DNA of 58,001 nucleotides from Candidatus Methylomirabilota bacterium. Lineage in GTDB: Bacteria > Methylomirabilota > Methylomirabilia > Rokubacteriales > CSP1-6. The stretch is from the NCBI GenBank assembly GCA_035936835.1, contig DASYVT010000146.1, positions 1 to 58,001 of the forward strand, given 5' to 3'. Position 1 is the first letter of the stretch. Each line of letters opens with the position of its first letter. Made by a program: the position numbers and the translations under genes. Positions 29,508 to 48,899 of this stretch are shown here, piece by piece. The notes below the pieces were generated by a model. That model was not told the origin of the DNA. It searched no databases and saw only the letters and a program-made list of their open reading frames with translations.

Positions 29508-30788
29508 TTAAAGGAGATCGATGAAGAGCGCGTCCGAGAGGAGAAAGCCCGCCTCGGTCAGGCAAACACGTCCCTCGCGCTCCACGACGAGCCCGCGCTC
29601 ACGCCACGCCGCGAGCGTGGCCTGGAGCCGCGCCGGTCCCAGCGCGGCGCGCTCATCGAGCCACGCGGCCGGCACGCCGTCGCTGAGCCTGAGACCGAGG
29701 ATCAGGCGCTCGGCCAGGCGCTGGCGCGGCGTCAGCGTCTCGTGCGTGCCGACGGGCGGCTCACCGCCCGCGACCATGGCGCCGTAGCGCTCGACGGGCT
29801 TGACGTTGCCGTAGCGCACGTCCCCGAGGAACCCGCAGGCGCCAGGGCCCAGGCCAAGGTACTCCTCGGCGCGCCAGTAGATCTGGTTGTGCGTCGAGCG
29901 GTGCCCCGGGCGGGCGTAGTTGGAGACCTCGTAGTGCTCGAAGCCCGCCTCTGCCGCGAGCTGGGTGAGCCGCGTGTATTGCGCGGTCACCGTGTCCTCC
30001 GGGGGGAGGACTATTGGGATTTCGCTCGCCTCGGCCGGCGGGGCCCCAGCCCCGCGACGTCCTGCGGCTCGGTCCTGGATTTCGCTCGCCTCGGCCGGCG
30101 GGGCCCCAGCCCCGCGACGTCCTGCGGCTCGCCCTACAGACGCCGCCGCGTGCCAGAGGCTGCCCTCGTCGAGCGTCAGCGCGTAGGCCGAGAGGTGATC
30201 GGGTCCCCAGCCGAGCGCGCCCTTGACCGTCTCCTCCCAGGTCGCGAGGTCGAGCGCCGGCAGCCCGTAGATCAGATCGACGCTGACATCCTCGAAGCCC
30301 GCGGCGCGCGCGGCATCGAAGGCCTCGCGCGCCTGCGCGGCGGTGTGGAGCCGGTCCAGCGTCGGCAGGATGCGGTCGTCCAGGCTCTGGACGCCCAGGC
30401 TGATGCGCGTGACGCCCGCCCGGCGATAGCCCGACAGCCGCTCGAGGCTCACGCTCTCGGGATTGCACTCGACTGTGATCTCGGCGCCGGCCTCGATGCC
30501 GACGCGAGCCCGGAGGCGATCGAGGATCTCCGCCATGGCCTCGGCCGGCAGCAGTGAAGGTGTGCCGCCGCCGAGGAAAACGCTGCGAAGGCCGACGGCG
30601 CCCGCCCACGGGGCGCGGGTGACGAGATCCATCTCGCCGAGGAGCGCCGGGAGGAAGCGCGCGACGGCGCCGGGCGAATCGGGCGCGGTGTTAAAGGAGC
30701 AGTAGCCGCAGCGCTTCGTGCAGAAGGGGACGTGGAGGTACGCGCCGATCGAGCCCGAGCGAGGAATCCACGAGTCAAGTGAAGTCAT
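29508..30788 (-). CDS. hemW: Radical SAM coproporphyrinogen-III-oxidase-like protein HemW
   Basis: 426 aa. Radical SAM cluster motif CTKRCGYCSF near residue 25, VFLGGGTPSLL, ITVECNPESV and DLIYGLPALDL. The first Cys motif is CxxxCxxC followed by Phe, and YLHVPFC precedes it. HemW is a heme chaperone rather than a true oxidase. An in-frame insertion of about 45 residues between LDEGSLWHAA and LPPEDTVTAQY consists of two copies of an RRGAGAPPAEASEI-containing repeat, encoded by a 60-bp tandem duplication (30017-30131). Placement ahead of hrcA is the classical order. ATG 30788 chosen; GTG 30791 adjacent. Confidence 0.93.
   Translation of the reverse strand: MTSLDSWIPRSGSIGAYLHVPFCTKRCGYCSFNTAPDSPGAVARFLPALLGEMDLVTRAPWAGAVGLRSVFLGGGTPSLLPAEAMAEILDRLRARVGIEAGAEITVECNPESVSLERLSGYRRAGVTRISLGVQSLDDRILPTLDRLHTAAQAREAFDAARAAGFEDVSVDLIYGLPALDLATWEETVKGALGWGPDHLSAYALTLDEGSLWHAAASVGRAAGRRGAGAPPAEASEIQDRAAGRRGAGAPPAEASEIPIVLPPEDTVTAQYTRLTQLAAEAGFEHYEVSNYARPGHRSTHNQIYWRAEEYLGLGPGACGFLGDVRYGNVKPVERYGAMVAGGEPPVGTHETLTPRQRLAERLILGLRLSDGVPAAWLDERAALGPARLQATLAAWRERGLVVEREGRVCLTEAGFLLSDALFIDLL
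30017..30131. repeat. 60-bp-period tandem repeat with hairpins, in frame inside hemW
   Basis: Two identical 55-bp blocks at 30017-30071 and 30077-30131, exact period 60 bp (20 codons). Each contains a hairpin GCGGGGC-TGGG-GCCCCGC. The repeat is translated as an extra loop of HemW with no counterpart in typical homologues. Confidence 0.92.
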
Positions 30789-30809
30789 CACGACGTAGTC
30801 CCCATCTCA

Positions 30810-30988
30810 GGCTGCTCAAAGAGGTCCAGATGCGAGGCGGCGCCCCGCCGTTCGAGTTGAGCGGCCGCCGCGAGACGAGGGCTGAGTTGATCCGCACGCG
30901 AGGCGTACTCCTGTACGTTGAGCGTGCGATCGAGGGCGCCCCAACAGGCTTCTTGCTAAATGGCGCAGATGGGCCTCTTTCAGCAACC
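30810..30988 (-). repeat. Nested palindromic element, copy 1 (between lepB and hemW)
   Basis: 179 bp filling almost the whole lepB-hemW gap. The outer arms (30810-30824 and 30974-30988) pair at 13 of 15 positions. A central stem GCACGC/GCGTGC (30922-30927 and 30894-30899) carries the apical hairpin CGTAC-AGGA-GTACG. The apical 22 bases are identical to copy 2 at 48774-48899, and the orientation relative to transcription is the same. Compared with copy 2 it has extra sequence (about 30840-30890) in one arm. Confidence 0.85.
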
Positions 30989-30991
30989 GCT

Positions 30992-31660
30992 CTACGGCAG
31001 CCAGTTGCCCAGGCGGCCCCAGCGCGGCCAGTGGCTCTCCCCGTTCCACGACCAGTAGATCAGGAAGGCCTTGCCGCGGATCTTCTCGCCCCGGACGAAG
31101 CCCCAGTAGCGGCTGTCCTGCGAGTTGTCCCGGTTGTCGCCCATGACAAAGTACGAGCCCGGCGGCACCACGAGCGGGTCGCATCCGTAGAGGTAACCGC
31201 AGTGGCCCGACGGGACGGCGGGCATCGAGCCGGGTCGGGCGTACGGCTCCTCGATCGGCCGGCCGTTGAGCTTGACGCGGTTGTCCTGCACCTGCACGGT
31301 GTCGCCCCCGACCGCGATGATGCGCTTGATGAAGTCGCGGCTCTCGTCGTTGGGGTACTTGAACACGACGATGTCGCCGCGCTCCGGCTTGCGGAAGCCC
31401 GGCAGGTGGGTGTCCGAGAACGGCAGCTCGGCGCCGTAGAGGAACTTGTTGACGAGGATGTAGTCGCCCACGAGCAGGGTGTCCATCATGGAGCCCGACG
31501 GGATGGTGAAGGCCTGCACCCCGCACTGGCGGATCACGAGCGCCAGCAGCCCGGCGATGAAGATGGCCTCGGCGTACTCGCGGACGAGCGACTTGCGGCG
31601 CGCGGGGGCCGTGGCCTCGACGGGCGCGGGCGCTTCGGGGTGGGTCTGGGTCGGGCTCAT
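30992..31660 (-). CDS. lepB: Signal peptidase I
   Basis: 222 aa membrane serine protease that removes Sec signal peptides. One N-terminal membrane segment (EAIFIAGLLALVIRQ); catalytic Ser in FTIPSGSMMDTLL, general-base Lys in RDFIKRIIAVGGD; box E is YFVMGDNRDNSQDSRYWG. The N-terminal Pro/Ala-rich tail (residues 1-22) is cytoplasmic. It lies 7 bases downstream of lepA, matching the common lepA-lepB pair, and is followed by palindromic element copy 1. Confidence 0.95.
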   Translation of the reverse strand: MSPTQTHPEAPAPVEATAPARRKSLVREYAEAIFIAGLLALVIRQCGVQAFTIPSGSMMDTLLVGDYILVNKFLYGAELPFSDTHLPGFRKPERGDIVVFKYPNDESRDFIKRIIAVGGDTVQVQDNRVKLNGRPIEEPYARPGSMPAVPSGHCGYLYGCDPLVVPPGSYFVMGDNRDNSQDSRYWGFVRGEKIRGKAFLIYWSWNGESHWPRWGRLGNWLP

Positions 31661-47588: not shown

Positions 47589-48770
47589 ATGAACTTTGGG
47601 TTCAACGAAGAGCAGGAGCTGCTGCGGAGCACCGCGCGGAAGTTTTTCGACAACGAGTGCGCCTCGGAAACCGTCCGCAAGCTCATGGACGGCCCCGAAG
47701 GCATGACGCCCGACCTCTGGAAGAAGATCGCCGAGCAGGGGTGGACCGGGCTCATCTTCCCCGACGAGCACGGCGGCATGGGCCTGGGCTTCGTGGACCT
47801 CGTGGTGCTGATGGAGGAGATGGGCCGCTCGGTCGTGCCCGGACCGTTCTTCTCTACCGTGCTGCTGGGAGGCCTCGCCATCCGCGAAGCGGGCACCGAC
47901 GCTCAGAAGAAGGCGTGGCTGCCGAAGATCTCCTCGGGCGATGCGCGCGCGACGCTCGCCTGGATGGAGCCCTCCGCCGAGCTAGGCGCCGGCGGCATCA
48001 CGCTCCAGGCGGCGGCCAAGGGCGCAGGCTTCACGTTGGACGGCACCAAGCTCTTCGTCCACGACGCCCACACCGCCGACGTGATCGTCGTCGCGGCCCG
48101 TACGTCCTCCGGGCAAAATCCCCCAGCGGGCGGGCAAAATCCCCCAGCGGGCGGGCAAAATCCCGAAGACGGCGTGTCCCTCTTCCTCGTTCCCAAGGGC
48201 ACGCCCGGCTTGAGCGTCACGCTCCTGCCGACCATGGACCAGACGCGCAAGCTCTGCGAGGTCGGGCTCAAGGACGTCGCGCTCGGGGCCGATGCGCTCA
48301 TGGGGCAGGCCGGCTCGGGCTGGGCGCCGCTTGCCCGCGTCATCGACCGGGCCACGGTCGCCCTCTGCGCCGAGATGTGCGGCGGCGCGCAGAAGGTGCT
48401 GGAGATGACGGTCGAGTACGCGAAGATCCGGCAGGCCTTCGGCCGGCCCATCGGCTCCTACCAGGGCGTCAAGCACAAGGCCGCGGACATGCTGGTGGAC
48501 GTCGAGAACAGCAAGTCGATCACGTACTACGCCGCGTGGGCCATGGACGAGGGCGTGCCTGAGGGCCAACTCGCAGTCAGCATGGCGAAGGCGTATGTCT
48601 CGGACGCCTACCGCCGGGTCTCCGGCGCCGGCATCCAGCTCCACGGCGGCATCGGGTTCACCTGGGAGCACGACCTGCACCTCTACTTCAAACGGGCCAA
48701 GGGGTCGGAATTCACCTTCGGCGACGCCACGTGGCATCGCGAACGGGTGGCCCAGTTGGTCAACCTCTAG
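47589..48770 (+). CDS. Acyl-CoA dehydrogenase, partner-type subunit with repeat insertion
   Basis: 393 aa. N-terminal domain (NFGFNEEQELLRSTARKFF), LIFPDEHGGMGLGFVDLVVL, FAD region, then VEYAKIRQAFGRPIGSYQGVKH and IQLHGGIGFTWEHDLHLYFK. The C-terminal Glu-Gly-Gly-Thr motif of its neighbour is absent, fitting a non-catalytic partner subunit. After AARTSS there is an insertion of three GQNPPAG-type heptads encoded by 21-bp tandem repeats (48111-48170), which interrupts a loop before EDGVSLFLVP. Stop at 48770 is followed at once by palindromic element copy 2. Confidence 0.92.
   Translation: MNFGFNEEQELLRSTARKFFDNECASETVRKLMDGPEGMTPDLWKKIAEQGWTGLIFPDEHGGMGLGFVDLVVLMEEMGRSVVPGPFFSTVLLGGLAIREAGTDAQKKAWLPKISSGDARATLAWMEPSAELGAGGITLQAAAKGAGFTLDGTKLFVHDAHTADVIVVAARTSSGQNPPAGGQNPPAGGQNPEDGVSLFLVPKGTPGLSVTLLPTMDQTRKLCEVGLKDVALGADALMGQAGSGWAPLARVIDRATVALCAEMCGGAQKVLEMTVEYAKIRQAFGRPIGSYQGVKHKAADMLVDVENSKSITYYAAWAMDEGVPEGQLAVSMAKAYVSDAYRRVSGAGIQLHGGIGFTWEHDLHLYFKRAKGSEFTFGDATWHRERVAQLVNL
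48111..48170. repeat. 21-bp tandem repeats in frame inside acyl-CoA dehydrogenase
   Basis: Units begin at 48111, 48132 and 48153; the first two are identical and the third diverges after GGGCAAAATCCC. They encode a heptad GQNPPAG repeated, adding about 18 residues. Confidence 0.92.
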
Positions 48771-48773
48771 GAT

Positions 48774-48899
48774 GCAGGCCGCCGATAAGGGCCCATCTGC
48801 TTCGTTGGCGCCCTCGGCTGCATGCTCAACGTACAGGAGTACGCCTCGCATGCAGCCATCGGGCGCCGCCTCGCATCTGGGCCCTTCTCGACGGCCTGC
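48774..48899 (+). repeat. Nested palindromic element, copy 2
   Basis: 126 bp, palindromic end to end, starting 3 bases after the dehydrogenase stop. Arms from outside in: GCAGGCCG/CGGCCTGC (48774-48781, 48892-48899); GGGCCCA/TGGGCCC (48789-48795, 48878-48884); GGCGCCC/GGGCGCC (48807-48813, 48861-48867); GGCTGCATGC/GCATGCAGCC (48816-48825, 48848-48857); apical CGTAC-AGGA-GTACG (48830-48843). Copy 1 at 30810-30988 keeps the apical part exactly and compensates base changes in the supporting stem. No coding potential beyond chance frames. Confidence 0.9.

Follow-up and report, generated by a model that had tools for sequence, protein, structure and literature searches.

The window, the whole 58,001-nt stretch of Candidatus Methylomirabilota DNA analysed here (contig DASYVT010000146.1), contains two copies of a nested-palindrome element, each adjoining the stop codon of a gene. 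Copy 1, a long variant read directly at 30809–30989 with its structurally constrained strand (the E strand) on +, lies beside lepB, the signal peptidase I gene (ORF 30992–31660, Peptidase_S26), whose TAG stop at 30992–30994 (−) was placed by alignment with relatives; in the same alignment the orthologous stop site of the related genome G001 reads CTAG. Copy 2, at 48774–48899 with its E strand on −, is the standard 126-nt hairpin (R1 covariance-model match, E 1.6e-29) and lies beside its CTAG insertion target at 48767–48770 (+), which forms the stop of the acyl-CoA dehydrogenase gene (47589–48770). Copy 2 has an orthologue in G003.

Direct reading shows the 22-nt apical core TCAACGTACAGGAGTACGCCTC to be identical in the two copies, and a pattern search of the genome places it at 30900–30921 (−) in copy 1 and 48826–48847 (+) in copy 2. 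In the latter the core comprises TCAA (48826–48829), the loop (48835–48838) and CCTC (48844–48847), with the stem CGTAC/GTACG, all on +. A second conserved internal loop has TTCGTT on its 5′ side (48801–48806) and GCCTC on its 3′ side (48868–48872), also on +. A sequence-only reading had already located both copies, with the shared core, the nested shells around it and a supporting stem that is GCACGC/GCGTGC in one copy and GCATGC/GCATGC in the other, and all of this is borne out. The outermost arms, which it took to differ entirely, are on the contrary diverged forms of one arm, GCAGGC(C/T)GC(C/T)…. Copy 1 differs by an extra internal arm that is more complete in G001; like copy 1, the loci L209, L327, L328, L321 and L322 are longer variants with extra palindromic arms in mid-hairpin, and in such variants the core grows or shrinks by whole arms.

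Another dispersed repeat lies nearby, inserted in a coding gene: positions 30017–30135 (−), inside a hemW-like ORF (29508–30791), hold a tandem in-frame repeat of a ∼60-bp unit, GAGCCGCAGGACGTCGCGGGGCTGGGGCCCCGCCGGCCGAGGCGAGCGAAATCC, that recurs at many places in G002, G005, G007 and G008, often at 95–98% identity.

The two window sites belong to one dispersed family. A pattern search of this Rokubacteria-type genome (G000) at up to three mismatches found 16 core copies, all with one mismatch at most, and none in the reversed control. A covariance model, R1, built from 30 relatives and from Rokubacteria-type copies only, gave 62 full-model matches in G000, 71, 80, 87 and 78 in G001, G002, G003 and G004 of the same genus, 100 in G013 and 13 in G006; the same search gave no matches in G005, G007 and G008. 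The 16 near-exact cores against a control of zero, together with the 62 full-model matches, show that the resemblance is not due to chance. A search of this kind had been proposed by the sequence-only reading, and it returned many more copies (62 in the own genome, 71–100 in related genomes).

Conservation within the element is concentrated in its loops. Among 83 copies TTCGTT/GCCTC and TCAA/CCTC are nearly invariant and many helix positions are variable. In 30 diverged copies 97.2% of cells are paired, and the covariation that had been called for is present: 23 of 48 pairs have changed on both sides, compared with 10.5 ± 1.6 in shuffles and only 2–5 in a control in which the partners were slid. 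At one orthologous site G003 reads GCGGGC/GCCCGC where this genome has GCATGC/GCATGC, and at the same site GCCGCCC/GGGCGGC against GGCGCCC/GGGCGCC. When the inner hairpin positions were left free in the scan, both pairs were complementary in 57 of 63 distinct cores. Copy 2 has folding z-scores of −10.5 and −13.4 for its two strands. A CsrA/RsmA-type site in the AGGA loop was considered and rejected because this loop varies freely, with ∼50 different loops in 118 loci among the matches listed.

Complementarity could in principle be kept by mutation rather than selection, since template switching, a known mutational route for imperfect palindromes, copies changes from arm to arm within a palindrome. 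The locus at which both arms have changed together between G000 and G003 is what such copying would produce. Template switching should, however, erase mismatched loops, and the loops of this element are nearly invariant and recur across phyla; it also predicts no asymmetry between A·C and G·T mismatches. The constancy of the loops argues against template switching as the whole story, and we consider it unlikely to account for the conserved pairing.

That asymmetry is pronounced. On the strand that reads TCAACG, helix mismatches are 114 A·C against 12 G·T in Rokubacteria and 107 against 20 in other phyla, part of the A·C excess being supplied by one fixed C·A position; in the variable inner helix alone the counts are 17 and 4 in Rokubacteria (p = 0.007) and 14 and 11, not significant, in other phyla. 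The A·C mismatches of this strand are G·U on the opposite, E strand. There the apical loop of copy 2, GAGG/UUGA, reads G·A, A·G, G·U, G·U, and in the 30 copies the ‘loops’ become G·A/A·G pairs plus two G·U; the tandem pair is G·A in 28/30 and A·G in 27/30, and in the apical loop 30/30 for both. The E strand also folds better, both as RNA (−103.5 compared with −86.5 kcal/mol) and as DNA (−55.6 compared with −49.9 kcal/mol). These sequence patterns point to the E strand as the one that functions in single-stranded form, whether as RNA or as ssDNA.

The outer shell of the element is most readily interpreted as the end of an IS5-type transposon. A complete element measures 144 bp between CTAGs, has ∼15-bp terminal inverted repeats CAGGCTGCTGAAAAA and is laid out as CAGGCTGCTGAAAAACTC-GCAGGCTGCTCAAAAAGGTCC-core-GGCCTTTTTCAGCAGCCTG with a CTAG directly on either side; complete copies flanked in this way occur in G000 and G013. 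Intact IS5-family elements in the same bacterial family have the same ends and a CTAG/TTAG duplication: one in G006 has CTAG followed by CAGGATGCGGAAAAA and one in G012 has TTAG followed by CAGGTTGCTGAAAAA, each with matching duplication. The transposase inside these elements matches NF033581 (280 bits, cut-off 140) and contains DUF772 and DDE_Tnp_1. The sequence CAGGCTGCTGAAAAAC is common to the complete copies and the IS copy in G007, and the IS ends in G006 and G012 are near-identical to it. A 486-aa ORF beside the G007 IS fragment was rejected as a candidate transposase, being an SLBB protein. CTAG is the usual target duplication of IS5 elements (PMC10379815). No IS5 copy of this type was found now in G000, G002, G003, G004 or G013, so the mobiliser is inferred.

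Neither window copy retains the right-hand inverted repeat or the distal CTAG, the duplication having decayed on one side, so that their status as MITEs rests on their relatives. Over the family, CTAG is retained at the left end of 40/88 copies and at the right end of 8/88.

Comparison of orthologous sites is consistent with mobility. Copy 1 is present in G001 and absent from the orthologous site of G002, G004 and G006; copy 2 is absent from the orthologous position in the same three genomes, where the empty sites have a single CTAG or TAG. Further candidate empty sites distinguish G000 and G001. At the sister-genome sites of L001, L012 and L224 that were called empty, a small CTAGCAGG-type palindrome is still present; it may have been left behind by a deletion, the site then having once been occupied. 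At one convergent gene pair (L006/L225) the element lies in opposite orientations in G000 and G001, which points to two separate insertion events or else to an inversion between the arms.

Of 71 scored copies, 61 have their left end −4 to +3 nt from the stop codon upstream, and at the commonest junction the stop TAG is made of TA plus the first G of the element. The adjoining stop is TAG in 55 of these 71 copies, compared with 9 of 26 genes in the window (p = 0.0002). The 58 kb of the window contain 19 CTAG sites, of which at least 8 fall on ORF stops as judged by their coordinates. Outside stop codons CTAG is rare, so copies come to lie at gene ends; their placement results from target choice together with retention of the CTAG that serves as a stop. 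Stop-codon adjacency, as the sequence-only reading had observed, does hold for both window copies, but the stop is a CTAG insertion target and not the sign of an RNA 3′ end.

A cis-acting 3′-UTR RNA under host selection, acting as a terminator, attenuator or mRNA protector, would also adjoin stop codons, and the fold is very stable on both strands. Among co-directional gene pairs the element has an orientation bias of 31 to 12 (p = 0.005), which would suit such an RNA and is neither predicted by simple insertion in random orientation nor accounted for by CTAG targeting. The E strand, however, is antisense to the gene at whose stop codon the element lies, making a role in its 3′-UTR unlikely; the sites differ between sister genomes, CTAG targeting accounts for where the copies lie, and the outer repeats correspond to those of a transposon. 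We therefore regard a host 3′-UTR RNA as very unlikely. The alternatives offered from sequence, a small mobile palindrome or a conserved 3′-end RNA element, are thus separated: high copy number, polymorphic empty sites, terminal inverted repeats and the CTAG duplication shared with IS5 elements support the first, while CTAG targeting and a constrained strand antisense to the preceding gene count against the second.

A different mode of mobility is that of REP-like elements, single-strand hairpins beside a TAG/GTAG-type tetranucleotide that are moved by RAYT (Y1 HUH) transposases. A hairpin beside TAG with one structured strand recalls these elements, and Y1_Tnp genes are present in G001, G004 and G006. 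There is, however, no Y1_Tnp in G000, G002 or G003, which carry 62–87 copies, and the surroundings of the three Y1 genes, out to about 1.5 kb, are free of the element. Complete copies moreover have long inverted repeats and duplicated targets, which, to our knowledge, HUH elements do not make. Mobilisation by a RAYT is thus highly improbable. REP/BIME sequences are likewise palindromic, extragenic and present in many copies, but they are much shorter and are associated with Y1 transposases, which three of the carriers here lack. ERIC/YPAL and other enterobacterial palindromic repeats are imperfect palindromes of ∼127–168 bp, intergenic and often beside stop codons; we know of no sequence relation between ERIC/YPAL and this element, and of no occurrence of them beyond enterobacteria and their relatives. 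A phage or plasmid origin was rejected, with no match in phages or plasmids; viral contigs gave two pattern matches only, one inside a gene and one weak.

The core extends far beyond the Rokubacteria. A pattern scan found at least 118 stretches in distant bacteria, and the carriers among the matches listed include Clostridia, Syntrophomonadaceae, Desulfobacterota, Nitrospirota, Planctomycetota, Muiribacteriota, Peribacteria, Polyangiaceae and others. Twenty-five genomes of other phyla have 1–50 exact cores each, with no control matches, and R1 at E ≤ 0.001 finds 35 copies in G073 (Proteobacteria), 14 in G062 (Deltaproteobacteria) and 18 in G064 (Nitrospira). In Desulfobacteraceae the layout is the same, with an end repeat, a short spacer, an imperfect second copy, the core and an end repeat. 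The end repeat here is GATGGCTTCGTAAAAAGTC, with 64–237 matches (≤2 mismatches) in each of four genomes, and the copies are flanked by ∼6–7-bp duplications such as AATAAG, AAATTT and AAAGGTT (sharing of flanking words as high in 0/200 shuffles). Given these other ends and this longer duplication, the core is not tied to one transposon type.

Local variations accompany the core in several of these lineages. In the Desulfobacteraceae locus L361 (84–276) the apical loop is expanded into a tandem CTAAGTACG repeat. In Syntrophomonas-type loci (L035 6834–7028, L089, L041) cores are found next to near-identical terminator-like hairpins or between them, and some of these genomes have tandem hairpin-element-hairpin arrays. 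In Clostridia (L021, L034, L085, L109, L124, L129 and others) many copies are situated close to ribosome-binding sites and not to stop codons, with a GGAGG/AAAGGGG-like stretch on one side and (A)GAAAGGAATG downstream on the other; the conserved downstream GAAAGGAATG flanks were rejected as a target duplication, the shared words being no longer than in shuffles.

Rfam searches of the window and of 18 loci at the gathering score, and of 4 loci at E ≤ 5, gave no match at the element. Searching the text of papers for the core sequence gave a single relevant match, the Geobacter metallireducens genome paper, in which the passages on repeats describe 24 predicted ‘short RNA elements’, the Gmet_R1005 family, with the central palindrome GRCGTAGCGCTGCTACGCC (Aklujkar et al. 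2009; PMC2700814). This palindrome is a variant of the core, and the Geobacter family is, in those passages, likewise multi-copy and intergenic. The window copies carry CGTAC-AGGA-GTACG instead, and at L023 a Geobacter-type variant, CAACGTAGCGCTGCTACGCC, stands beside the CGTAC form. Those passages present the Geobacter repeats as RNA elements, located for instance 5′ of genes, and name four species alone as having them; the description there includes neither inverted repeats nor duplications nor a cross-phylum scope (PMC2700814). The element was therefore only partly ‘undescribed’, as the sequence-only reading had it: it is absent from Rfam in the searches above, but a 24-copy relative in G. 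metallireducens appears in the 2009 account (PMC2700814).

MITEs themselves are known, and the IS5-type shell is ordinary. The elements described here resemble IS5-family MITEs in their ends, their CTAG duplication (4-bp CTAG/YTAR), small size, high copy number and want of a transposase gene, with intact IS5-family relatives that have the same ends taxonomically near. They differ in having a covarying nested-hairpin core in common with elements of other phyla whose ends are unrelated, and it is this conserved core that is unusual. Taken as a whole, the window sites are probably IS5-type MITEs with a structured core that is found across phyla.

The sequence comparisons suggest how such elements may arise and spread. 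An IS5-family DDE transposase would move the element in trans, cutting and joining at CTAG. The CTAG beside a gene would be kept as its stop codon and the other would decay, as would the second copy of the inverted repeat, leaving the 127-nt hairpin. Less firmly, the core may be a portable unit that contributes to the spread of the element in the form of a single-strand hairpin, either ssDNA or RNA; it might bridge the two ends or bind a shared host factor. That unrelated transposon ends in many phyla have adopted a strand-specific hairpin module, which by way of a conserved host factor promotes mobility or persistence, is a tentative proposal, which we think somewhat less probable than its contrary.

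The rarity of CTAG gives a simple reason for the position of these elements at stop codons, and the repeat noted in Geobacter in 2009 is now tied to a family in about eight phylum-level groups. The interiors of MITEs are usually taken as leftover, functionless sequence. Here, the interior keeps its loops, covaries in its helices and is under strand-specific constraint across distant phyla, whereas the ends and the duplications differ, which suggests a functional part common to small transposons.
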